DNA from: Dacryopinax spathularia
Lineage: Eukaryota; Basidiomycota; Dacrymycetes; Dacrymycetales; Dacrymycetaceae
Assembly: GCA_037974965.1 (NCBI GenBank)
Contig: JBBPFI010000003.1
Location: 1,922,001-1,986,000, forward strand
Length of the DNA stretch: 64,000 nt
Direction of reading: 5' to 3'
Positions 32,608 to 53,110 of the stretch are shown piece by piece. How positions within the stretch are numbered: position 1 is the stretch's first letter; each line of letters starts with the position of its first letter. The position numbers were made by a program, and so were the translations under genes. The notes below the pieces were generated by a model. It saw only the letters and a program-made list of their open reading frames with translations, searched no databases and was not told the origin of the DNA.

Positions 32608-34517
32608 TCAATACCTCTCCCCGGTCCTCATCACTTCGAGTAGTTTCTCTTCGAGCCCTTCCTGTCTTGGAGTGAAGACGGCCTCAAAGGCTTTGGGCGC
32701 ACCGATGAACCCCGAGTGATCTTCGAAATCGTCGACGCCGCAAACGACTTTGTTCCCGTGCTCATCAACCCGCCAATCGAGGTCGAAGGCCCACAGGAGC
32801 GTCGCAGCCACGATGAACAGGGCGTTCGTTGCGAAATCTTTGCCAGGACAGACGCGCCTCCCGTGGCCAAATCCGAGCATATCGAGTCGTGTATCAGCTG
32901 TTACGGGTTTGGGCTTCCCGGAAGCGTCGAGGAAACGGGTTGGATCAAAGACCTCCGGATTGGGATAAGCAACCGGATCACGGGTTTGACCCCTACGTCA
33001 AGGTGAGCCGAAATGTAAAAGATATAGACAGCTGGATTTCTTACCAGATGTTATCAAAAAGCATCGTCCCCTTTGGGATGACGTATCCGCGATACTCGAA
33101 GTCCTGATTGTCAGTTAGCAGAACTATCTCGCGGCGCTAACTTTAGGACGAACCTCGCTCGCTTGATGTGGCACTCCTATGGGAAGACCAGGCCGCCATC
33201 TCATGCCCTCTTTCACGAGCGCATCAATATAGGGAAGCTGGTCCCTCTGGTCGAAGGTGGGTGGGTTGCTACCGCAGACTGCATCAAGTTGCTTCTGCGC
33301 CGCCCGCCTCACGTCAGGGTGATGCAGGAGCCCGAGAACCAAGATGCGGAAAGCTGTGTGAGTCGTCTCCTGGCCTGCCATGCTTCCGAGTTCGACATTC
33401 TTCAGCATGCCCCGTGACTGACGAGAGCACATCCGCTTACTAGATTGCAACAGTCGTCCAGACCGCCTGGTGCTTTGTCAAGCCATACTTCTCACTGTTT
33501 GCTCTGAAGTCCTTCACAATGGTGGGCATTGCCTGCGGCAATGTGAGGACACTCTTCAACCAGCGTCAGAGAGCAGGAGACCAACGCACCCCATCATCAA
33601 CTCCATCATACAGCCTATAGCCTTCTCGGGTCGTCTCCTCTTGCCAGTTGTCGGCTTCCCTTCTCAACCACTTGCTTCTCTGCACGAGCGGCTTCAGGAA
33701 GGGAAAGGCGTCCACCCGGCTGTTCTGAGGAAGCATGGCGTACAACATCTCCTTGTCGAGCTTCTCCATGACGCGACTAGGATCTTCACCCATGTGTTCA
33801 AATGGTTCCCCACCGTATAGAATACGGAAGATCGAGGAACCTGCCAAACGATGGGTATGCGCCTCGAACGTTTTGGAGGGATATCTAAGAAGGCCGAGCG
33901 CAAAGTTGGCAACTTCTGCAGTCTGTAGCTGACAAAATTGAGAAGTCGCTCGAATGTTGAAGCTGTTGGATGGGTAGGATGAGTCATAACAGCTTCCTTC
34001 AGACTGCGGGACATACTTGGCGTGCAGAGCCCGTCTCGCACCTCGGAAACTAGGGGAGTTCAATTTGTGGAACGACTCGGCAATGACTGGCGTACTGCGG
34101 GCCAAGATCCTCACTGATAAACATGCTACGGAGACCATAGAACTCGCCCTGGGCAATGAGGCCTGTTAGCCTGGCTTCGAAGGAGATGATAGAAGACGGC
34201 ATTACCTTGATAGAGCGTGGACGGGCTGCCGTGATTCCCGACATACGGTCCAGGACATCCGCAGCTACCTCAACGTTATCGAGGATCACCATCGGTCTTC
34301 CCATGACCCATATGGTATAGAACGGTCCATACTGCTGAGACCACGAGTGAAGCTTGTACCAGAGAAACTTAGCAGGGAGCTGCAGTGCATTTCCGAAAAT
34401 CGGAAGGCCAGGGGGTCCAGGGGGCAAGCGGGATGTACGTCGACGTTGTACATCTCGCACTGCGGCATAAACTAGGTAGAGAACAGCCAGGCCCAGGAGG
34501 CCGAGTACGTAGAGCAT
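32608..34517 (-). CDS. Cytochrome P450 monooxygenase F
   Basis: Eight exons on the minus strand: 34206-34517, 34096-34148, 34017-34049, 33590-33962, 33441-33532, 33154-33382, 33045-33103, 32608-32992, about 511 residues. An in-frame Met at 34535 would add six residues; 34517 is chosen because it gives the MLYxx start of C, D and E. The membrane anchor is followed by LPPGPPGLPIFGN. The 33-nt exon encodes FRGARRALHA. I-helix MAGQETTHT, K-helix KEGMRWRPGLP, FDPTRFLD and FGHGRRVCPGKD are intact. Exons 2-7 match C and D exactly in length. No defect is visible. It is the functional minus-strand sister of E; substrate unknown. Confidence 0.92.
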
Positions 34518-34535
34518 CTTGGTTGGCAGAGGCAC

Positions 34536-35300
34536 GATGCGCTTGAAGGGGCGCTCGCGCGATTGGAGCCCTTTATGAGGCCCAACTTACCGGTTGGAGC
34601 ACACCACCGCAGACTTGTGTTTGTTGGCAAACTTCGCACGTCTGGCCCTTGACGGAAGGTTGATAGCCCGAGTTCTCCATCAGTAGCAAGAAGTTCAGAC
34701 CCGCAGCCGCCTTGTGTCAACCCGCAGGAAGAGTTCGAGAGAGAAGCAGCTTCAGCAGCATCCTTCTATCTGCCAACAACGCGCCAGTAGATAACCCCAG
34801 AACGTATGATACGGTCCATTGAGTGACAAGGTCTCCCCGGCGGATCAGTCTCGCGTTGCCTCTTGTGGAAAGAATATTGGGTGCCCGCTGCATCAAATTC
34901 ATCCACCATTCATTATTCCAGGCGAATGGACGGCAAAGTGACTGTGGTCTATCTGTCAACTCAACTCAGCTGGAGCAGAAGACCAAGGAGATACCTGGCT
35001 AACTTGCGACGTGCCTTGGATGGCGAACGTAGCAAGACCCATCTGCGCAGCAACAATGATGTCCCAGAAAACTAGAATGCTTCGCGATGCAGAGGCGGAG
35101 CGCACGCTCCTTATACCATCTTGAGCGCGTCAGGGGGGAACATCGTGCCGTAAGATCATCCGTTGCTGCTGACCCCTCTATGAATGGACTCTTGCACCCT
35201 ATGAACTGGAACCGACCTAACCGTCGCTTCAGGGCCCGATCACCAGCAAGACCCTTATTGAAGCGAGAGACGTTGGCTGAAGTCGTCAGAAGAACGTGCA
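34536..35300. other. Intergenic upstream of P450 F
   Basis: It carries the promoter of F, with a weak TATA-like CATAAAG (minus) at 34571-34577. No gene is supported. Confidence 0.4.
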
Positions 35301-36000: not shown

Positions 36001-36407
36001 CGCAAGGGTACACATAGGGGGGAAGTTCAATCAACCCTACTTACATAGAACGAAGCAGAGTCAGGCGCAGAAAAAACAGGTCGATCGCTTGGAGAAGCAG
36101 AGGACATGGTCAACAGTCAGAGACAGGCTCCCGTTCGGGGCCGATCCCCTAAGTGACGTAAGAATGCCTCCGCCGACAATGTTATGGCGGAATCAGATTC
36201 TTTCAAATCTCAGTGCGCCTATTAAGCCATCCGCTGCTTTCGACAACCCCGCATTAATACGGCCACACAGCGCATATACTTGCAAAGTCCATACTAGACA
36301 ACACCGGTAGTCACCAGCAGAATCAGTAACGGGTCGAATATCTTGTTGCTATCCTTGGCTTGCACATTCGAGGCTGCGTGTAGGAGGCTCACGCCAGCCT
36401 TCTTAAC
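36001..36407. other. Intergenic upstream of the RBM26/27-like gene
   Basis: The stretch may include more of the P450 remnant (VHIGGKFNQ near 36,010 weakly resembles LYGGKSFDH) and carries the promoter of the next gene. Confidence 0.35.
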
Positions 36408-38978
36408 TTGACTTTCATCATGCTCTTCGACGTGTCGCGAGGAGATGAACTGCGGCCATGGCTGATATCGACACTCGAACCAATATGCGATGCCGACCCC
36501 GAAGTCCTCGCAGACTACGTTATCGCGCTCCTGCGCCATGACGGCGATGAGCAGCAACTTCGAGGCGTGTTCGTCTCCCAGCTCGAAGACTTCCTGGACC
36601 AAGAAGCGCCCGCCTTCGTGGACAAGCTCTTCGCTGAGCTCAATAGCCGGCGAATGATTGTTCGTCCCCAAGCGCCCGCCCAACCCGTACCTGGACCCAG
36701 TAACTCCAACCCGATAACCGCGCCGAGTCTCCCTACGCCGCCAGACGAAGGCATCCCAATACCGCTCGAAATGCTGGCTGGTCCTTCGTCTTCTGCTCAA
36801 GTGGGGCAGAAACGAGGTCGCGACTCAGATGATATGGATGTGGACCGCGGTCCGCCGAAGGGGCCGAGGATGGGCACTGGTCTGCAGGGGATCCAGCGAT
36901 ACGAGAGCAGAAATCAGAACGGACCTGGTGGGTTCCAGGGGCCAAATGGAGGGCCATTCAGAGGGCAGGGGCCGAGAGGTGGAAGAGGGCGAGGTCGCGG
37001 TGGGAGAGGAGGCTTCCCTGGCCCTGGTCTCGGTCCTGGCCGAGATGGACGGGAGCCGTGTCGCGACTTCCATGGTGCGTCTATCTGCTCAAGTACCCGA
37101 CTACAACAGCTAACAGTCACGTTCAGAGAGAGGGTTCTGCTCCAGAGGCATGCTGTGCCCTTTCTCGCACGGCGACGACATGGGCATGGTACCGCCCATG
37201 ATGCCATTCTTCATGCCAGGCATGATGCCCGGTATGCCCATGCCTGTCCCAGGTCCGAACGGGGAGATGCAATTCCCGATGATGCCGAATATGTTTGGGC
37301 CTGCTGGTCTGCCCGGACAACCTGGAGGCGGGAAGGACGGGGAATACGATCCGAGTCAGGCGCAGATGCCGATATCGCCTACTGGGATGGGGATGATGAG
37401 TGCCATGATGGGCGGAAGTAGCGAGGACCAAGATATGGATGGTGGCGACGGATCTGGAAGGGGACGCGGACGAGGCGGCTTCCGAGGAAGAGGCCGGGGG
37501 AGAGGTGGTCAACCCCATGGAGGCGGCTTCCGACCTAGCCCAGAGGACAAGACCCTCCTAGTCGAGAAGATTCCCACTGAGCACCTCTCACTCACTGCGA
37601 TCAACGAGCAGTTCAAGAAACACGGCACGATCACGAACATCGCCGTCGACGCTCGGGGCGCAAAGGCGATGGTCACATTCGCGACGCATGAGGAGGCCCA
37701 GCGGGCGCACCGTGATCCGGAACCGGTATTCGGCAGCCGGTTCGTTAAGGTGCTTTGGCATCGGCCGCTCGAGGGCAAGGGTACGATAGGCCAAGAGATG
37801 CTAGAGAAGAGCAAAGTGCTCGTGAACAACCTGAACAACCCGAAACCCCCAGCACCAGCCGCTCCTAAGCCTGCTACCCCTGCAGCAGGTCAAGACCCAG
37901 CTGCGGCCGCACTGGCAGCCCGGACGCAGTTGATCGAGAAACATCTCGCGGAGCAAAAGACGCTCATGGAGAAGTTCGAGAAGGCCTCCACGCCTGCGGA
38001 GAAGAAGGAGATCCTACAGCTGATCAAGAAGAATGATCAGGCGATGAAGGAACTCAAGGAGGCACCTTTGCCTGTCCCCGCTCCGAAGCCTGCCCCTGCC
38101 CCGGCTGCTCCTGCTCCTGTGAGTGGAGCTGGCGCGGGAGCTGGTTCGAGAGAGGCGCAGATGAAGGAGAGGTTGGATAAGGAGCTGGATTTGCAGAATA
38201 CGATGGATGAGATCAAATCGAATGGGGATGCGAATCCGGAACTACTTGCACAACTGCAACAGCTTCGTGAGGAGGTAAGCCGCTTCTGATAACTACTTTC
38301 ATTATCTAGGTACTGACTGTGAGATTCAGGCACGACAAGCCGGCGTCCCGCTCGACGCGAACGGTCGACCAATCGAGCAGCCCGCACCTACTTACACTCC
38401 CGGCTATTCCCGCCAATACGCACGTGGACGTGGGCGAGGCAGAGGCCGCGGTGGATGGCGTGGCGGTCCTCCGGTTTATCATCAGTCGATGAAGCTGGAT
38501 CTCCGACCAAAGAAGTTGATCGTCAAGGGCGTTATGCCAGGCGATGAGGACGCGCTCGCTGCAGTGAGGAATTTCTATGTGGTATGTATGGTGTCCATTC
38601 GCTACTGCGCAACGCTAATGCCCGATTGTCTTCTCTTAGGCTTCTGGCGGCATGGAATCCCTCGAGCCCCAGCCAGACGGGACGATCCACGTCAACTTCT
38701 TCAGCCGGAGCGCAGCAGAACTAGCAATGTCCAAAGGCTCCTCCATCCCCAACGCGGAGAACGTAACCGTCAGCTGGCCACCACCCGCTGCACCGCCAGC
38801 ATCTTCCCAGCCCGCATCATCCGCGCCAGGGTCGCAAGCCAGCCAGCCACAGCCAAATACGGAAGAGAGCCAGGAAGTGGAGCATCAGCTTGCTAGTGGA
38901 GCGCAGGAGTCGGCCGACCAGCAGCAAGGCGACGATGATCCCTGGGCGACGAGCCAGGATATTGTTGTCGATGAATGA
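36408..38978 (+). CDS. RBM26/27-type RNA-binding protein (PWI-like, CCCH zinc finger, two RRMs)
   Basis: A nuclear RNA-binding protein. RBM26/27 and fission yeast Rmn1 work with exosome-targeting (MTREC/PAXT-like) complexes in RNA turnover (family knowledge). Exons 36408-37074, 37127-38274, 38330-38581 and 38640-38978 give about 801 residues. An N-terminal PWI-like helical domain (RPWLISTLEPICDADPEVLADYVIALL) is followed by a Gly/Arg-rich stretch. The CCCH finger is created by splicing across 37074/37127: C-x8-C-x5-C-x3-H in CRDFHERGFCSRGMLCPFSH. Then come a Met/Pro/Gly-rich region, a second RGG stretch, RRM1 (KTLLVEKIPTEHLS ... RFVKVLWHRP), a coiled coil of Lys/Glu (about residues 495-560), another RGRGRGRGR run, and a degenerate RRM2 (KKLIVKGVMPGDED). 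The C-terminus is acidic. Confidence 0.9.
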
Positions 38979-41386: not shown

Positions 41387-42316
41387 TCAGACGCTCATCC
41401 CCAGCGCAGCCGCCACACCCAACAGCACCGCCAGGCCAGCACCCATCGACCCTGCCATGAGGGAAAGAGCGCCTGACGAGCCTGAGGAGCCGGACGAGCC
41501 CGTGCTGTTTGACCCGGAACCGGTCGAGTTCCCGGAGGATGAGGAGGTCGAGGTGGAGTTCTTGCACGTTACGTTGGAGGGGACGGTGTAGTTCGTGATC
41601 AGCACCACGTCGGCGCACTATAGTTCACCAGTATCAGCACCAGCACAGAACGAAGAGCAGTACCACGAAGAAGAAGGGAGAGGGAGAGAGGGTAACAGGA
41701 GAGGTAGACATACGTCATACAGCGCCCCATCACCACCATTAAAGTACACCTGAATAGTCGCGTTCGTCCCGTTCGCCACTTGAAGTCCAACGTTCTCAGC
41801 ATCGACAGGGACACAGAGCTCGCCCTGGTAGTTCATCGTGAATGTCGGCACGAGCGGGCTCTGCTCTCTTTCGTAAGCTGTTGTTCCTATCAGGGGAGGG
41901 GGGGACGTACGATAGCGGTGCCATTGCTCGTCTGGTTGAACTGGGCGAAAGTGGTCGGGTCGTTGTCGAAGCTATTCATCGCAATCTGTCAGCTCCTTGC
42001 GCTGGGGAAGGGGGGGGGGCGCACCTGATGACAATCTCGACCGTTGCAGACGGGTGCTCGGAGGTGATGTCGACTACGCCAGAGTCAAGCGGGAAGGGAG
42101 AGCGGGCTCCGGTGGGGTAGGAGGAGCAGAATGACGTCTCTTTTTGCTGTGACGTGGGGTTAGTATGGCCAGAACTAGTGGGAGAAGGGGAGGCAGGGGG
42201 AAGGGGGAGGAGGGACGTACGGCGACGAATGGGCCGCGGGGAGGGGGGTAGTTGAGGTGGAAGTGGGCGAGCGCTGGGGCTGCGGCGAGAAGGAGGAGGG
42301 CAGCGGTGGAGAACAT
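41387..42316 (-). CDS. X325/BIM1-like copper-binding GPI-anchored protein 1
   Basis: A cell-surface copper-binding protein of the LPMO-like X325 (BIM1/CBI1) family; in Cryptococcus the family helps the CTR transporter take up copper. Exons 42221-42316, 42025-42146, 41911-41971, 41714-41860 and 41387-41617 give about 218 residues. A signal peptide ends in PALA and exposes an N-terminal His (HFHLNYPPPRG), the histidine-brace start of the family. QKETSFCSSYPTGARSPFPL, EHPSATVEI (candidate second copper ligand His) and FNGGDGALYD follow. Cysteines are spaced as in its paralogue. A Ser/Gly/Asn-rich stalk and a hydrophobic C-terminus form a GPI signal. It lies about 4 kb from a CTR gene and has a close paralogue at 50,622-51,480. 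Confidence 0.9.
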
Positions 42317-42403
42317 CTCTGCGGCTTTCGGCTCTTCAAACTTTTGGAATGGTCGGGGAGGTGGGAAAGGCTTGAAGAGATGAGAGTCGGGAGGTGTTGA
42401 GGG

Positions 42404-42410
42404 TTATATA
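42404..42410 (-). promoter_or_regulatory. TATA box of X325/BIM1-like gene 1
   Basis: TATATAA (minus strand) lies about 90 bp upstream of the ATG at 42316. Confidence 0.55.
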
Positions 42411-43350
42411 CCGAGAATGAGGAGTGGGGGATTGAATACCGTCCTTAGTGATACACAAGAACACTTGAAGTCCTAACCGGATGGTGCCTGGCTTCCCTTC
42501 CCTTCCCAAAGACGACGGACTGTCGCAAACGGCCGAACGCGGTGCACCGAATGCGGGTCCACGATCTAATCGCGATACTGCGAGAAGACAAGGGAAGCCA
42601 CCGAGGGAACGGAAGTAACGGAAGCAGGTTTGGGTCCGGGAGATGGAGGGACCCCGGGAGCGCTTGATGGAGGGCCGGAACTTTTGGGATTTTTTGGAGG
42701 AATACAGCCTTGGGGCTTCTGGTGGGCTTCTTGGCGTCCGGCGTGTGTTGCAGGATGCCAGGGATCTGACCAACAGAACTAGTGAACCCAGCAATGCACT
42801 GCTTGTCGCACTCAACTGAGCATGGGTACGCTCAACCTAACTTGGTGAGGCACACCCAGAACTCAATCAGACCGACTACTGGAGAAGCAGAACTTGATGC
42901 GAGCTACGGGTTCATCGATGTTCTGCCCGAGGTACCTCATCCTTGATGTTCGTTCTGTTACGCAGAAATATAATTAGGATTGCTACGTGAGCAGATCGAG
43001 GCCTGCGATATGCACTCCCGCGAAGACAGAGCGAGCTATCTGAACAAGATGGAGTTCAGCTCGGAATCGCCAGGAACAAACAGAGGAATCTGTATCTCCC
43101 TTCCTCACATCGAAAACGCCAGCCTGAGATTCAGAGCTAGAAACCCAACCCTTTGAGGAGCATGCTTATTATATTTGCAATGCATAGTGACACCGGACCT
43201 TGCGCAAGAGTCTCCGAACTGGACCACACCCTGGTATCTTCTTCAGAGACCGGACCTCGTATACACCGTTCTTTCCTCCCCACTTCAACTTTCTGCTAGT
43301 GTAGCATTCCCATGAGGTTCGTCTAAAATCTCGGCGGCATCCCGACGGGC
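42411..43350. other. Intergenic upstream of X325/BIM1-like gene 1
   Basis: About 0.9 kb of upstream DNA, the likely place for copper-responsive control of the minus-strand gene. I see no gene and no clear copper element. Confidence 0.4.
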
Positions 43351-43354
43351 ATTG

Positions 43355-43565
43355 GAGCAGCCGCGATCGCCCCCGTCAGGCAAACGGTCAATTCCAAGCT
43401 CGGATTAGATTCGCAGATCATTGTTGACAATCGAGTCGAATAAGATATCCATAATAACATAGATGTTTTTGCGCGGATTGTTTTCTCGAGTCGTCGTCCA
43501 CCAGTCAGAGATGTTCCAAACGTCAGTCCCCCACCCGACCACAATCCCTTGCCTCGCCAAAGAAC
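43355..43565 (-). pseudogene. Degenerate reading frame of unknown family
   Basis: The minus strand just after the rhodanese stop reads GWGTDVWNISDWWTT, NPRKNIYVIMDILFDS and IVNNDLRI, then a TAA, and continues in the same frame as SELGIDRLPDGGDRG. The amino-acid composition is protein-like, but there is no start and one in-frame stop. It may be a gene remnant or a poorly resolved exon. I do not recognise the family. Confidence 0.3.
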
Positions 43566-43568
43566 CTC

Positions 43569-44178
43569 TCAATTATCTTTCCCCCTCTCCTGCTCCTTCG
43601 CCGTCCAATCCAACCAGCTCCCATCATAGTTCATAACCCCCTTCCACCCGCTCCTAACCGCAAGATCACAAGCAGTCAAGCTCCTCTTCCCGCTCCTGCA
43701 ATAAAACACCACTTTCTTCTCCTCCGTGTTGCCCGGCTTGGGGAAGCCGAATTTCTGCTCGAATTCGTGCGCGGGGAGAGTGAGCGCACTGGGGAGCTGC
43801 GAGAGGGGGAGGGCGACGGAGGAGGGGATCGAGCCTTGGGCGATCTCGTCCGGCTCGCGGACGTCGACTAGGACGACGTCCTGCCGCATCTCTCTTTAGC
43901 TACACTGCCGGCTTTGGAGTGGAGGGAAAGGGGAAGGGGTGACGAACCTCGCTAGGCTGCTGAGTCCATTTCTTCACTTGGTCATACGTCACACTAGGAT
44001 GATTCCAGTGCTCAGCAGCGATTGAGCCTTCCGCCTTGGGCCCCGTACCCGGGCGTGGGATTTGCTCGTTCGCCCGACGCAAGGAGGTGGAGAGAGCCCG
44101 GCTTTGGCGGGGGAGGATGCGGACCACTGGTGGGACCGTCCGCGGCATGCGTGTGAGCAGAGTGCGAGCGCGGTACAT
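43569..44178 (-). CDS. Mitochondrial rhodanese-domain sulfurtransferase
   Basis: A single-domain rhodanese that transfers sulfane sulfur from thiosulfate or a persulfide to a thiol acceptor. Exons 43948-44178 and 43569-43889 give about 183 residues. The N-terminus (MYRARTLLTRMPRTVPPVVRI) is Arg-rich with no acid, a matrix-targeting signal. The domain has VTYDQVKKW, VVLVDVREPDEIAQGSIP (the conserved DVRxPxE) and the active-site loop VVFYCRSGKRS with the catalytic Cys. It ends in GWKGVMNYDGSWLDWT, typical of the family. The start at 44178 is preferred over an upstream in-frame Met because it begins the presequence. It sits inside the copper gene cluster; a link through sulfur or copper chemistry is speculative. 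Confidence 0.88.
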
Positions 44179-44563
44179 TGTCGGTTTCTTTGCTGCGAAT
44201 GACCAGTAAGAACGCAAGTGATAGTGACTGCGATGGTCGTGCGGTCTGTTAGAGATTGAGCTGCTGGAAGAGGGTCGTGCGCGAATTACCAGCTCTGCGG
44301 AGCACGTCATCCCATCCCCTGGCCAATCAGCCTCACCCCTGAGGAAGAACGGCCGATCCTCGGCTTCGACAGCTTCCGTCTCCCTTTCCCTGGCATTTCC
44401 AGCACATTTCCCTTCCTTGGGACTCTGGTCAGCCAACCGCATAAACCCCTCATATCCGCACGGAAGCACCTAAAATGCCTCATCACACACCGGCTGATCC
44501 TCCCCCCTTACACACAGCAGAGCGGCAGAAATCGCGCATCTCAGCGCGGAGGGTGAACGGGCA

Positions 44564-44570
44564 TATAAAA
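44564..44570 (+). promoter_or_regulatory. TATA box of orphan locus 2
   Basis: TATAAAA is followed by a CT-rich leader at about 44,625-44,700, as at orphan locus 1. Confidence 0.5.
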
Positions 44571-46300
44571 CCCCTCCCCACTTCGTGCAGGGCGCAGCGA
44601 AAGGAAAACGCCCCGCTTGTCATTCGCCCATCGTCTTCCCTTCATCCCTCTCCTCTCCCTACCCTGCCTTCTCCCTTCCTTCCTTCTCTGTTATCTCTCG
44701 CTATGGGCTTCTTTGGCTCTTGAGAGATGGGGATGCTGCGCCTGGCTGTGCTCCATGGGAGACAAGGCGCATATATGGCTCCCCTCATCCCGCCTGTCAA
44801 CGATTGACACCTCTCTATCGCCCTTGATGGCGGCTTCACCTGATCATCCATCATCGTCCCTCGCCGACCCCTCTCCCCTCATCCCGAAACCATCCACCAT
44901 ATATATCCACCCGGCTGCTTATCTCCGCTTCCCCTCCTGATGGCGTGCTTCTCTCTACACCTGGCTCTTCTCCCCCTCTGGTACGAGGCACGACCCGCCT
45001 TTGCCGACGCTCTCCCCGGTCAGCTTTGGATATCCTCCATGAAAGCGAGAAGGGGTTGAGTGCCTGGCATGGGCTGGTCGTCGCCTACCGCTCTCCGTCT
45101 AAGCTCAAGACACGCTGGCATTGACTGTCTACCACTGCTACCTACTGCCACCACCTGGTCACCCCCTCCTGGCCGCCTTCTATCCTCAGCATCTCAAGGC
45201 AAGCAAGATCACCGCACATCCTCAAGCACGCAAGACCGGCCCTAATCAACCCCTCTCCCCCTTCAGCTCATCGTCGATGGTCCGTGCCCACTCCAATCCG
45301 CCTCCTTCCGCCTCCGCCAGCTTCCGTCCTCCTCAGCGTCCTCAGCGTCCTTCGGGAGTTCGCATACGTTCTTGGGATACGTCAGCGGGCCGGCTTGTCT
45401 TGCGTCAATGAATCTTGGAGAATGTGGGAATTGCCCGATGGGCGGATGAAATGTCTGCATGGTTGGGAAGAGTCTGGTGATCGGCGACCGTTTTGGAGAA
45501 GGAGGGTTCTGAACGGCTCCTTCCAGTTTCCCATTCTCTATGCATCAAGCACAGTATGGCGCCATCTCCCGCTCGTGCTCCGTTTGGCAACCCGCCCTCC
45601 TCTGGCACAAGCCGATCAGGCTGTTGAGGAACACGAAGCACCGCGACTGTATTGCATTCTGTTGAAGGCTATCTAATCTGTTGGTACTTGCCAGATGGAG
45701 AACGCCGTGGCGTGCCATGGACTCGGGCTCCTTCAGGTTCTCAGGCACATGCCCCTCCCTATACGGTAATGGCACGACATTACGAAGGTGGACGAAGAGC
45801 TCCACAAGCGGAGCGGAGCGATGGGTGACGGCAAGACCGGCTTGGGTCGATCATCCTCTCCAAGGACCCCTTGTGACGCCTCTTTCCTGCTTTCACTCGC
45901 GAGTCTGCGAAATTCCTTGCTTTGCCAAAACTGCGAAACTCAACACCGGACAAAAGCGATTATCAAGATCTTATCTCCCCCATCATGACCGGCCAACTCC
46001 GGGCGCCTAACATATATGGCCAAGTAAGAGGCCGGAGCGCCGGCACACTTCCCGGCCCAATTCGGCGAAAGGCGAGTGAAGAGTGAAGAAGGGTTCGGCA
46101 CCGCGCGCGAGGGCTTTGGACGGAGGCAAAAGACGGGAAGAAATTGGAATGCGGTGATCGTGGGCGGAGGTATATCTTGTCTCCGAGCATTGGGAGGTAG
46201 TGGATTGATTACGAGTGCCCCGACGACTGGCGACTGGGAGGGTGAGACCTCCTCGGGCGAGTGCTGTGCTCTTGTATCTTTCGTCTCTCTCTGCCGCTCT
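44571..46300 (+). other. Orphan locus 2: possible paralogue of orphan locus 1
   Basis: About 1.5 kb between the divergent rhodanese and CTR genes. It shares an exact 18-bp block (45236-45253) and a 17/18 block (45865-45882) with orphan locus 1, in the same order. In one frame the second block reads RTPCDAS and is followed 18 residues later by LCQNCETQ; at locus 1 the loose copy reads GIPCDALSTCRDCG. If coding, this suggests a small protein with Cys and CxxC. No complete reading frame is visible, so it may equally be a noncoding RNA. Confidence 0.35.
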
Positions 46301-46377
46301 GTCCCGTGCGATCGTTTGGGAGTCTACGTTACTTAGGTGCGCTATAGTCCTCTCTCCGTTGAGTACCTTCACTCACC

Positions 46378-46385
46378 TTTGCTCG
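46378..46385 (+). promoter_or_regulatory. Candidate copper-response element upstream of CTR
   Basis: TTTGCTCG, 73-80 bp upstream of the CTR ATG, fits the yeast Mac1 site TTTGC(T/G)C(A/G). The same 8-mer also occurs inside the rhodanese coding sequence (44061-44068), so chance is possible. Confidence 0.3.
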
Positions 46386-46457
46386 CTCAGTCCCACCAAC
46401 CAACCACTCATACCCGCCCTTGCACTACCCAGCTCAGCGAGCAAAGAACAAGCAAAG

Positions 46458-47182
46458 ATGGACATGGACGACATGCCCGGCATGGACATGGACGGCACGA
46501 CCACCACCATGGGCACAATGGGGATGATGCTCGGCTTCCACGCTATGCCCTTCGACCAACTCTGGTTCTCGGGCTGGACACCGCTCACGAACGGGGCGAT
46601 GGTTGGGGCTTGTGTGGGGATCTTCTTGCTTGCGATTGTTGATCGGTGGGTGGCCGCGATTAGGGGGTTGTGTGAGGTTTGGTGGAAGATGAGGTGAGTC
46701 GCTTTGCTTCCCTGCTCTGTACCGAGAGCAGCCAGCTGATAAGGACCTGCAGGACCGATGCTATACTGGCTAGGAAATATGCAAATTCCGCCTCCTCCGT
46801 CCTCCCCATCGTCGGCTCCCAACCAACAAACAACGAAAAGAAATCCGCCTCAGCCTCCGAAGTGGACGTCGAAGACTGCTGTTCCCCCAGCACGCCCAGC
46901 GTGCCCATCCCCGCCCTCTCCTACCGCCCCCTCCCGCCCCCCTTCCCCACCCGCCTATCAGCGATCGACAGGCTCATACCGCCCTTCATATTCTCGCACG
47001 ACGTCCCGCGCGGCGTGCTCCAAGTTGCGCAGGCCGCACTGGGGTATGCGTTGATGTTGGCGTTTATGACGATGAATTGGGGATATTGTTTGTCTGTGCT
47101 GGCGGGGTTGGGGGTTGGGGAGGTGTTGTTTGGGAGGTATGCGAATCATGGTGGGCAGCATGGGATGACTGGGAGTGCTTAG
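46458..47182 (+). CDS. CTR-family high-affinity copper transporter
   Basis: A trimeric plasma-membrane (or vacuolar) Cu(I) importer. Exons 46458-46693 and 46753-47182 give 221 residues. The extracellular N-terminus is Met-rich (MDMDDMPGMDMDG, then MGTMGMMLGFHAM), the copper-capturing Mets motifs. TM1 follows (GAMVGACVGIFLLAIVDRW). A cytosolic loop of about 100 residues contains EDCCSPS, a Cys pair that might hold copper. TM2 has the copper-selective MxxxM (LMLAFMTMNWGY) and TM3 the packing GxxxG (LGVGEVLFG). The C-terminus ends in YANHGGQHGMTGSA with two His. The length fits small fungal CTRs. It is flanked by orphan locus 2 and the FRE-type reductase on the same strand. Confidence 0.95.
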
Positions 47183-48175
47183 GCTGCTTGGCTGCTGGTC
47201 GCCCATGGGTGGATGTTGTGTAGGATGTTGTAGTGGGTTGGGGATGTGTATCTGTTTACGTTTTATTATGAGAGGAATGTACAACTATGTTAAACTGTGA
47301 ACTGTGCGACGACGCTGCCTGCTGCGAATTGCGCATCTGCTCTGTCCGTTGTTCCCCCCCAATCTCTCCAGCTCATCCTACGTGTCGCAGGCCGCGCTAT
47401 CTCCCCTGCAGAGGAATTGGGCAGTGGAATGAGTATCTAGAGCTCGTGCATGCCTGCCCAGGCCCAGCAGGCTCTCACACACGACAGGAGGGGCAGATTA
47501 TTCATGCCCGCAATCCCCAATTCTATCCCAATATCCAGGAAGTCCCCCTGATCGAGATATGCCAAATGACCACCTCCCTCACCACCCGGTCGCCACAAGC
47601 CGACTCAGACTCCATCAATCCATTCCCCAAATCGGCAGTCGTCCCCAAAATCTGCTTCCGCTAAAACCGGAGTGTCCGGGGTCTGATCCACCCTTACAAA
47701 GGCACGCACAGCCCTCGTTCCGTTGTCTTCCCTCCGTCATCCTTTTTCGCCACAGCTTCTCACTCTCGCAACCCCGGTCCGGAACTATTATAGGCACTTG
47801 TTCTCGTATCTGTGCGGCTGCGCTCGCTCCTCCTCCTTCCTTCCGTCAGGACCATCATATCGGGCACGCACAAGCTTCTCCGTGTGCATCTCGGCGACAC
47901 TGCAAGGATAGGAAGTGCTCTCGGGGGCCTACTTGGATCCTTGCAAGTCTCAAGCTCATTCACTCCTCACCTCGCTGATCGACGCCGGCACGTTCCGCGG
48001 AGCCTGACTTTCCCTTCCCTCGGCTGAGTGGGGGATCGGGGCGTGACCAGGACTGCGGATATCTTGAGCCAAAAGGCCCCTTCTTATTCCCCTGGACTTG
48101 GGAACCCATCAGTAGTAGTTCTCTCTCTCCTCTGTGCTTGTGAGGGCTTGGACGGTTCTGTACTACTGGACGACA
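47183..48175. other. Intergenic between CTR and the FRE-type reductase
   Basis: About 1 kb containing the CTR 3' UTR and the reductase promoter. A TATA-like ATTATAG lies near 47,787. No gene is supported. Confidence 0.45.
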
Positions 48176-50110
48176 ATGTCCGACCCGGGTGCTCCTCCTG
48201 ATATTCCTGCTCCTCCTGGACAACAGGACAAGTAAGTCCTTTCGCTTTGAAGATCGGGTCATGCGAGCTAAACGTGCAACAGCGTCTACCTCATCGACCC
48301 ACAATATGCGCTGATATTCACCTACACCTGGGTATCAGTCGCCGCAGCCGCGATACTCTACCGATCCCCCAAGCTCTACAGGCGGATCCGGAATGCCTGG
48401 AAACGGGACGGGATCCACGGATGGGGTATCTACGAGGATATCTCGCCGCTTAACGTGGAGGAGGAAAAGGAGGCGCTGATTCATGGTGCTGCTATCAAGC
48501 GAACAGATAGTGTGCGATGGGTCAGCGTGTCTGGGCCTGTTAGGCTGCTCCGAGCGGCAGAAGCGCTGTTCAGGAATACGTTTGGTTGGGAGGTGAAGTA
48601 CCTGCGCCTCAGCGTCGGCCAGCGTACGTCCACCACGGGCTCCCTTGATATCTACTGACTCTCTTGCAGTCGTTCTGCTCGTCGGCTTCACCCTCACCCT
48701 CCTCCTCTGCTTAACCCTGAACTCCGAACTATATCTCAACTCCAACCGAGCAGGATTCATGGTCCTCTCCCTCCTCCCGCCCGTCTTCCTCCTCTCCACG
48801 AAAAATTCCCTCCTCGCATTCCTCCTCTCGATCGGGTACGAAAAGCTCAACTTCTTGCATCGCTGGGGAGGACGGATGATGTTCGTCCTTGCGTGCGTGC
48901 ATGGAGGGCTGTGGATCAATAATCGGATCATCAATGGTCAAGCCAGCTTGCTTCTCACGGAGGATAAGGAACGGAGGGGGATTGCGACGATCTCCGTGTT
49001 GACACTTATCGTGCTGACGAGCATTCGGCCGATCCGGATCTTCGCCTGGCAGTTCTTCTTCGCATCACAGTACGTTTCACGTCCCGAATCGTCATAACTT
49101 ATGTGCTGACGATACGCCAGCGTGGCGCTGTACGTGGCATTTTTCGTCTGCCTGAACTACCACACTCCCTACGCAGTGCCCTGGATATTCCCAGCCCTCG
49201 CCTTCTACGGCTGGGACATCGCAGTCCGCATGCTCCGTTTCCGGATGAAAGATGCCACCCTTCTACCAGTAGACGACCAGATGACGTTGGTCCATATCCC
49301 CGACGCGACCGGCGGGTGGCGTGGAGGGCAGCATGTCCGGCTGAGGATCTTTGTCGGGACGCAGGCGTTCCAGGCTCATCCACTCACCATCCTGAACTCG
49401 CCTGCGCCGAGAGCGGATACGACCCGGACGCAGGGGATGCTCCTCGCCGCGAGGGTTAATGGAGACTGGACCAGGGCGCTCAACCGCCTTGGGAAGACCA
49501 GGGCATGGGTCATGCTCGATGGGCCGTATGGAGGTGTTAACATGACTCCGAAGGAACGGGTGCTGCTCGTTGCGGGCGGATGTGGTGTTACCTTCACGCT
49601 CGGCGTGATGGACGAGCTCATTACTGCTGTTGAGAATGGTGATCGCCGGTTGAGGGAGATCGAGTGGGTGTGGTACATCCGGTCTTATGGTAAGCATATA
49701 CATTCTTACTGGACACGCCTGTTGACTCCCTTGAAGATTGCGTCAACTGGTTCGTCGCCCAACTGCAATCCCTCGCCCTCCGCGCACATGCCATGCCATT
49801 CCTCGACCTCCGCGTGCGCATCTTCCTCACCTGTCCCTGCGGCGACCCCCCGGAACTCCTCTCCTCCATCCCCGACTGCATCGTAACAACCGACAAACCC
49901 AAGATTGCCGACCTCCTCGAGCCCCTGCTAGACTTCGAGATCGAGGATGCCGAAGGGCGCAAGCCCGCCATGGGCGGCGGAGTGGGCGTTGCGGCCTGTG
50001 GGCCGGAGATGCTCGTCCGGCATGCGCAGAATGCTGTGGCTGCTATTAGTCCTGCTAGGGCGGCGAGGTGCGGCGGGGTGGAGGTGCATGCGGAGAGGTT
50101 CAATTTGTAG
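48176..50110 (+). CDS. FRE-type ferric/cupric reductase
   Basis: A plasma-membrane metalloreductase that passes electrons from NADPH via FAD and two hemes to Cu(II) or Fe(III) outside. Exons 48176-48231, 48283-48623, 48670-49069, 49121-49689 and 49737-50110 give 579 residues. TM1 is LIFTYTWVSVAAAAIL. The ferric-reductase membrane domain carries two His pairs about 14 residues apart: FLHRWGGRM / CVHGGLW and SHVALYV / NYHTPYA, the expected bis-heme ligands. The FAD motif is AFQAHPLTILN. NADPH motifs are VAGGCGVTFTLG and ACGPEMLV. Its position between CTR and the second X325 gene suggests cupric reduction for copper import. Gene order is suggestive only; iron reduction is equally possible biochemically. 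Confidence 0.93.
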
Positions 50111-50546
50111 TTACTGTAGTATCGGATGTATTACCTATCTGTACCAAGTCTATCCAAGGAGTCCAACCTTGCCTGGTTCGGGAAGCAGGCTCGTCCGGAG
50201 CTTGCGGTACCCTGTACTACCTCCGTACGGGAGGGTCAACCGTTCATGATGCCAAGCCCACCAACCGAGCAGGACGTCAAGTTCCGGGGTCTTAGTCTTC
50301 ATCTATCGACCATCTAAGATCTGCGGAAGAAGCCGCACACGACTTGTGGCTTGGACGCCAAGACTTGTTCACTTGTTGCTGTTTCCTCCGCACGACGAAA
50401 AGGGTCGATGGAGGTTCGGGACGGGAGGAAGGTTGATGCATGTCTTTCCTGGTACGTGGTGAGGAAGCCAGGCACGGAAAGTTGTCCGGATAGGATAAGC
50501 GGGCAATGGACGTGATGTTGTCACAAGTTTTCCGCCCCTTTTGAGG
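50111..50546. other. Intergenic between the FRE-type reductase and X325/BIM1-like gene 2
   Basis: It carries the reductase 3' UTR and the upstream region of the next gene. Nothing else is seen. Confidence 0.45.
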
Positions 50547-50558
50547 TATAAGAGCTGG
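50547..50558 (+). promoter_or_regulatory. TATA box overlapping a candidate Cuf1-type copper element
   Basis: TATAAGAGCTGG lies about 65-75 bp upstream of the ATG at 50622. TATAAG is a plausible TATA box. The last ten bases fit the fission yeast CuSE consensus D(T/A)DDHGCTGD, which is degenerate enough to occur often by chance. Confidence 0.35.
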
Positions 50559-50621
50559 AGTTTGCATGGGCTATTGGAGCATGCTGCGACTGGAGCCTGA
50601 TCCCCTTGTTTCTCTCTAAAG

Positions 50622-51480
50622 ATGTTCTCCGCGCTGCTTGTTCTCGCTTTTTCGGCCCTCCCAGCCTTCGCCCACTTCACCCTCAACTACCCTCCTCCTA
50701 GAGGCCCATTCGTAGCTGTAAGTTCCTACTTCTCTCTCCCTTCCATTCGGCAATTCCATGGCTGACCCACCGTAGCAAAAAGAACTCTCCTTCTGCTCCG
50801 GCTACCCCACAGGCGCCCGCTCGCCCTTCCCCCTCATCGGAGGCGTCATCGACATATCGAACCATCACCCCTCCTGCCAAGTCGGCGCATGGATCAGCTT
50901 CGACGCCGACCCTACCCAGTTCGTGCAGTTTAACCATACCGACAACGGAACTGAATATGTGGGTCCTGTTGCTCCTTCAAGAACACTGGGAAAGGGCTGA
51001 TCGGGCGGGCAGGGGATGCTGCATGGGTTTATTCCTATGAACTGGCAGGGCGATATTTGTTTTCCCGTCGATATTGAGAGCCTCGGCGTTCCGGGCGTGG
51101 GCAATGGCACGCTGGCGACGATCCAAGTGCAGTATAACGGCGGCGACGGTGCTCTCTTCGACGTAAGCTTCTTCCATCCCCATCCCAGGTGTGTCGCAGG
51201 CTTAGTAGATGGATGACAGTGCGCCGATGTCGTCCTCCTTGCCAACTACAGTGTCCCGTCCAACGCGACTTGTACCAATTCGACCGCGGCGACCAACTCG
51301 TCTTCCGATAGCAGTATTACGGCGCTTCCGACTGCTACGCCGAGCAGCAGTAGTGCGAGCAAGGGCACGTCCAGCGGGTCGGGCTCGAAGGGTGCTGCAC
51401 TCGGCGTAGATGTGCGCTCCGTTGGGACTACGCTTGGAGTGCTGTTTGTTACTGGGGTTACAGTATTGCTGAGCTTCTGA
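50622..51480 (+). CDS. X325/BIM1-like copper-binding GPI-anchored protein 2
   Basis: Paralogue of the protein at 41,387-42,316. Exons 50622-50717, 50776-50958, 51013-51162 and 51220-51480 give 229 residues. The signal peptide ends in PAFA and exposes HFTLNYPPPRG, so the mature protein again starts with His. QKELSFCSGYPTGARSPFPL, NHHPSCQVG (two adjacent His near the expected second ligand), FDADPTQF and YNGGDGALFDCADVVL align closely with paralogue 1. A Ser/Thr-rich stalk and a hydrophobic C-terminus (TTLGVLFVTGVTVLLSF) form a GPI signal. One intron present in paralogue 1 (after ATC AG) is absent here. It follows the FRE-type reductase on the same strand. Confidence 0.9.
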
Positions 51481-52022: not shown

Positions 52023-52880
<858 letters not shown>

Positions 52881-53110
52881 ACTTGCGCTTGGCTTCCTCT
52901 GGTGCTCCAAGGAGCACGACGTTCCGGTTCGCGTTATCTCTCTCCTGTATACCACGTTAATCCTGTTCTCTTTTTCTCTGCGCTCCTACTGTCGGTCTTG
53001 TACAGCCGTGCCAATATACGGATACAAGAGCTCTCTCTACTCGATGGATATGACAGATTGACGGCGCACGCGGCGTCGTCGTTGGGTATCATGCGCTCGG
53101 GGCGAAGGGG

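Follow-up and report, generated by a model that had tools for sequence, protein, structure and literature searches.

In fungi, genes for copper transporters of the Ctr family and genes for metalloreductases have been reported in tandem in 110 of 127 screened species (PMC7705104), and in Aspergillus fumigatus such a pair is joined by a gene for a glycosylphosphatidylinositol (GPI)-anchored protein, the adjacent and co-regulated genes Afu6g02800, Afu6g02810 (ctrA2) and Afu6g02820 coding for the GPI-anchored protein, the Ctr transporter and the metalloreductase, respectively (PMC2481287). The A. fumigatus homologues of the Pseudogymnoascus destructans proteins VC83_03096 (FRE), CTR1a and BLP2 are given as XP_747795, XP_747796 and XP_747797 (PMC13208438), and because these accessions are consecutive and the functions match, they very likely represent the same trio, which would make its GPI-anchored member a BIM1-like protein. 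A comparable arrangement is described here for the basidiomycete Dacryopinax spathularia. A stretch of 64,000 nucleotides (the window; C3:1922001-1986000, contig JBBPFI010000003.1), located away from the ends of a contig of 2,613,975 bases, contains between its positions 41387 and 51480 the genes for two secreted X325/BIM1-like proteins (X325A and X325B), a Ctr family transporter (CTR) and a ferric/cupric reductase-like protein (FRE). We regard this locus, with a probability of about 0.82, as a copper-acquisition gene cluster serving surface capture of Cu(II), its reduction and the import of Cu(I).

Parts of the arrangement are known from further fungi. The Ctr gene AnctrA of A. nidulans adjoins AnfreC (AN3209-AN3208), which is proposed to code for a cupric reductase (PMC7705104, which mentions neither BIM1 nor GPI), and the Ctr-FRE pairs of Fusarium are reported to be controlled by Mac1 (PMC11563359, likewise without mention of BIM1). 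In P. destructans, BLP2 (VC83_03095) and the FRE7-like VC83_03096 are described to rise on copper withholding (PMC12113139, PMC13208438); their neighbouring tags, from which adjacency is read, correspond to the neighbours FRE and X325B of D. spathularia, whereas the CTR genes of that species carry the distant tags VC83_00191 and VC83_04814. The GPI-anchored X325 protein BIM1/Cbi1 of Cryptococcus neoformans, encoded by CBI1 (CNAG_02775), is reported to act together with Ctr1 in copper uptake (PMC9258870). The D. spathularia set combines the two neighbour pairs known from the literature, Ctr-FRE and FRE-X325, and differs from the A. fumigatus trio, which comes from an ascomycete, has one GPI/X325 gene instead of two and is free of a rhodanese gene. 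A first-pass annotation of this DNA had hinted that the linkage might be novel, which is not supported in view of the tandem pairs and the trio mentioned above: it is already known in kind from moulds, and what is new is a basidiomycete set with two flanking X325 copies. Conserved linkage of these families is apparent from published ascomycete data only, and the searches made in open-licence literature brought up no statement of X325-CTR-FRE linkage as such. A genome in which only two X325 genes were found, both placed around one Ctr and one FRE gene, likely names the reductase and transporter partners of these proteins; this bears on how BIM1/X325 hands copper to Ctr and on which enzyme reduces the copper, and provides a compact gene set for testing X325 copper hand-over.

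Genes of the locus and their predicted products

The genes follow each other in the order X325A (-), rhodanese (-), CTR (+), FRE (+) and X325B (+), with CTR, FRE and X325B directly consecutive and the rhodanese gene between X325A and CTR; positions 41387 and 51480 are the stop-codon ends of X325A and X325B. All spliced gene models were built by hand, and those of the four copper genes contain GT-AG introns of 46-96 bases. The five proteins all scored above their Pfam cut-offs, the weakest value being that of the FAD_binding_8 domain of FRE (23.2 versus 22 bits). The spliced models and Pfam matches confirm the inventory given in the first-pass annotation, namely two secreted X325/BIM1-like proteins, CTR, a two-heme FRE and a rhodanese, and they retain the N-termini predicted there for the mature X325 proteins, HFHLNYPPPRG and HFTLNYPPPRG. 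Only the rhodanese gene and unassigned DNA had been noted there between the copper genes; none of 10 open reading frames (ORFs) of 81-183 amino acids picked from the 5,036 intergenic bases matched a Pfam family.

X325A (41387-42316, minus strand) codes for 218 amino acids and contains four introns (exons 42316-42221, 42146-42025, 41971-41911, 41860-41714 and 41617-41387), while X325B (50622-51480, plus strand) codes for 229 amino acids and contains three (exons 50622-50717, 50776-50958, 51013-51162 and 51220-51480). Both products belong to the BIM1-like family PF20238 (E values of 4.7e-29 and 3.2e-24, or 102.1 and 86.4 bits, versus a cut-off of 27) and align with the structurally characterized LaX325 (PDB 6ibh) along the entire domain, starting at His1, at E values of 3.8e-24 for X325A and 7.5e-24 for X325B and with 38-41% identity; the signal cleavage sites were placed by alignment with the chain start of 6ibh. 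The copper site of X325/Bim1 proteins is described as a His brace complemented by an Asp on a Gly-rich loop (PMC7529816), and a nearby Asp is likewise named as the fourth ligand (PMC10952591). Opposite His1, His49 and Asp122 of LaX325, whose status as copper ligands is taken from this general description and the alignment and not from the structure file, X325A carries His1, His46 and Asp120 and X325B carries His1, His46 and Asp121, with the Asp residues in a GGDG motif in both cases. The alignment supports conservation of the candidate histidine-brace ligands in both proteins and, to this extent, the copper-binding brace expected in the first-pass annotation.

Both X325 proteins end in a Ser/Thr/Gly-rich stretch followed by a hydrophobic segment (mean Kyte-Doolittle values over the last 20 residues of 1.87 and 1.81), which supports the GPI-like character of the tails assumed earlier. 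Within the domain, 68% of the aligned residues (100 of 147) are identical, and the two genes share three intron positions, while an extra intron of X325A splits the counterpart of the 183-base second exon of X325B into 122 and 61 bases. As judged from this intron and the degree of identity, X325A and X325B are paralogues which do not derive from a very recent copying event. Mature X325A contains four Cys residues, and X325B has four at the matching places plus Cys49, which makes its cysteine count odd. Residues 45-49 of mature X325B (exon 50776-50958) read HHPSC, placing an additional His45 next to the brace residue His46 and Cys49 three residues beyond it; neither His45 nor Cys49 is present in X325A.

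CTR (46459-47182, plus strand; exons 46459-46693 and 46753-47182) codes for a Ctr family copper transporter of 221 amino acids (PF04145, E value of 7.2e-34) with a Met-rich N-terminus, an MxxxM motif (MLAFM) and a GxxxG motif (GLGVG). Its residues 150-206 match the solved structure of a high affinity copper uptake protein 1 chimera (6m97, E value of 1.1e-7). The acceptor of its single intron was picked from several in-frame AGs, a choice that alters just the residues right after the first transmembrane part. FRE (48176-50110, plus strand; exons 48176-48231, 48283-48623, 48670-49069, 49121-49689 and 49737-50110) contains four introns and codes for 579 amino acids with the domains PF01794, PF08022 and PF08030 as well as the motifs HPLT, GPYG and CGPE. 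Its two H-x13-H pairs (H196/H210 and H266/H280) agree with the presence of two hemes; matches of FRE to solved proteins are weak, with a best E value of 1.2e-4.

Taken as a copper-acquisition system, the two X325 proteins, presumably anchored by GPI on the outside of the cell, would bind Cu(II) via His1, the second His and the Asp, FRE would pass electrons from cytosolic NADPH via FAD and two hemes to the copper, and a Ctr trimer would import the resulting Cu(I) through its Met-x3-Met filter. This sequence of capture, reduction and import had been proposed in the first-pass annotation and gains support from the protein families, the X325 ligands and the genome context. The sequence shows that the genes are there, in which order they lie, to which families they belong and that both X325 proteins keep the ligand residues; the placement of the products at the surface, the use of copper by this FRE, the transfer of copper between the parts and their control by low copper are inferred.

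Genome context and regulatory sites

Pfam searches of the entire 29.2-Mb genome scored the best candidates, and the resulting counts are lower bounds. At least two matches to the BIM1 domain were obtained, both at this locus, and no other BIM1-domain locus was found. At least three Ctr matches occur at two places, two of the three being exons of the CTR gene in the window. For Ferric_reduct, at least nine matches were recorded, among which the FRE of the window ranks first, while it is absent from the at least eight matches of the NAD_binding_6 genome search, although the spliced FRE protein matches this family. When two X325, two Ctr and nine FRE genes were placed uniformly at random, an X325 gene with a Ctr and a FRE gene each within 10.1 kb was obtained in 23 of 2,000,000 trials, which makes a chance neighbourhood unlikely, even though the model is crude, ignores tandem duplication and refers to a window picked beforehand.

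The second Ctr gene (G000:C6:660302) begins with MNHDHAMHASAPPMRRCAMNMLWN, has no TTTGCTC in the 700 bases upstream and lies on a contig for which the genome searches yielded no FRE or X325 match; it presumably resembles Ctr3/Ctr4. The FRE of the window shares 24-30% identity with all seven FRE loci compared elsewhere in the genome, over aligned pieces of at least 106 residues. One of these loci, on contig C10 (943253-944539, plus strand; about 26% identity to the FRE of the window over 176 residues), faces a gene for an FTR1 iron permease (945265-946337, minus strand) with 726 bases between the matched parts, so another FRE is kept beside an iron permease in the same genome; a search for Cu-oxidase_3 (FET3-type) gave no match on this contig. 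Four Ferric_reduct matches within about 40 kb (C1:1207050-1247007) form a local group of reductase genes. Close to the beginning of contig C10 are two copper-fist matches, on opposite strands and separated by 7 kb (C10:42872-49975), one at C10:42872 and the other at C10:49895, the latter in a protein with KGHR and KGRP motifs. A scan of viral contigs for X325 returned 53 pattern matches, none of which was confirmed as a relative. For the IMPDH fragment of the genome, the best PDB match is 4af0 from Cryptococcus neoformans (504.5 bits, versus 455 for the next entry), which, as far as one protein can tell, fits a basidiomycete.

Upstream of CTR, two TTTGCTC sites on opposite strands (46378-46445) may serve as copper-response elements. 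They start 81 and 20 bases before the CTR start codon and both read TTTGCTCGC, a 9-mer with three occurrences in the 143,208 bases examined, this pair included. TTTGCTC is the core of the Mac1 site TTTGCTCA quoted in PMC11563359. The heptamer itself is not clearly enriched, the window containing 12 matches, one of them inside the rhodanese gene, versus a mean of 8.03 in shuffled sequences, 16 of 100 of which reached 12. Note that the Mac1 region of A. nidulans lies in the promoter shared by AnctrA and AnfreC (PMC7705104), whereas the TTTGCTC sites of the present locus stand before CTR only.

Competing explanations and origin of the linkage

A number of observations weigh against a coherent copper-acquisition cluster. 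TTTGCTC is absent from the 700 bases before X325A, the 700 bases before FRE and the 500 bases before X325B, and the exact copper-response element (CuRE) consensus described for C. neoformans (PMC7961099), which may not be the site used by this fungus, occurs in none of the four upstream regions; if one mismatch is allowed, two matches appear, both before CTR. The four upstream regions also have no more 5- to 7-mers in common than random stretches. In addition, CTR and FRE have the same orientation and are separated by about 1 kb, unlike AnctrA and AnfreC with their shared promoter (PMC7705104), and the metalloreductase gene Afu6g02820 is reported to rise more strongly at high copper in wild-type cells than in an aceA mutant (PMC8425704), which fits poorly with a pure low-copper role. 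The metal used by FRE cannot be read from its sequence, its copper role being assigned by context, and Cbi1 of C. neoformans also alters chitin and chitosan in the cell wall (PMC9258870). Joint control of the four genes in response to low copper is accordingly unproven and, as far as motifs go, is supported for CTR only.

The reported effects of Cbi1 on the levels and exposure of chitin and chitosan (PMC9258870), together with the abundance of P. destructans BLP2 in all copper conditions tested (PMC13208438), leave some room for the view that the main task of the X325 proteins lies in the chitin/chitosan architecture of the cell wall or elsewhere at the surface, and that they adjoin CTR and FRE through a shared copper response, with no hand-over of copper to CTR. 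We consider this rather unlikely, since the copper ligands are retained in both paralogues and Cbi1 itself is reported in Ctr1-dependent copper uptake (PMC9258870). That FRE acts on iron or on metals in general and lies beside CTR incidentally appears more improbable still: the sequence of the window does not fix its metal, and FRE proteins can reduce both metals, but the genome has a separate FRE-FTR1 pair, metalloreductase genes adjoin Ctr genes in most of the fungi screened (PMC7705104), and deletion of all three genes of the A. fumigatus trio did not, according to PMC2481287 (which does not show the data), reduce growth when iron was low. That four surface genes without any relation came to lie together by chance, for which one could invoke the rhodanese gene and the 5,036 bases without recognised genes among the copper genes as well as the lack of a promoter element common to all four, is hardly credible in view of the random placements and of the adjacency of the same families in ascomycetes (PMC2481287, PMC7705104, PMC13208438).

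The copper-acquisition cluster is compatible with more than one origin. Jointly with the data on A. fumigatus and P. destructans, the locus suggests that the three-part X325-CTR-FRE set may be old in fungi. A linkage that arose independently of the ascomycete clusters or by horizontal transfer, and not from an ancestor of the Dikarya, is nevertheless a serious contender, which we rate at somewhat less than even odds. The C. neoformans genes for X325, CTR and FRE, which are not known to be linked, presumably bear scattered locus numbers (that of CBI1, given above, is documented), which would favour this possibility. The strands also differ from those reported for A. nidulans (PMC7705104). A more elaborate and doubtful scenario starts from a single X325-CTR-FRE cluster before the split of ascomycetes and basidiomycetes, which was later scattered, for example in Cryptococcus; after duplication of X325 in the present lineage the copies might have taken different jobs, X325A capturing Cu(II) and X325B, with its His45 and Cys49, perhaps passing on Cu(I) after the reduction.

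The rhodanese gene and the flanking regions

The rhodanese gene (43569-44178, minus strand; PF00581) codes for a single-domain protein and has an ambiguous intron acceptor. As judged from its basic N-terminus, the protein is possibly mitochondrial, and the gene is probably a bystander in the copper locus. In the 2,280 bases between it and CTR (44179-46458), no gene was recognised. Among the short ATG-started ORFs of 20-120 amino acids between 41000 and 52000, two are Cys-rich (31 and 20 amino acids) and show no sign of being genes; a tRNA scan of the window using the bacterial code found none, and Rfam searches across it gave no match at gathering scores.

From the flanks, 10 ORFs were compared with Pfam, comprising seven out of 47 ORFs with a length of 170 amino acids or more and three shorter ones from a codon-score gene finder, which had recovered few of the exons already known and was otherwise not relied upon; there are no copper genes among these 10. 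The right flank contains a gene for a Ras/Rab-type GTPase (52465-53058) and the left flank one for a PWI-domain protein (36384-37418), to the left of which the start of a cytochrome P450 gene is found at 34053-34586.

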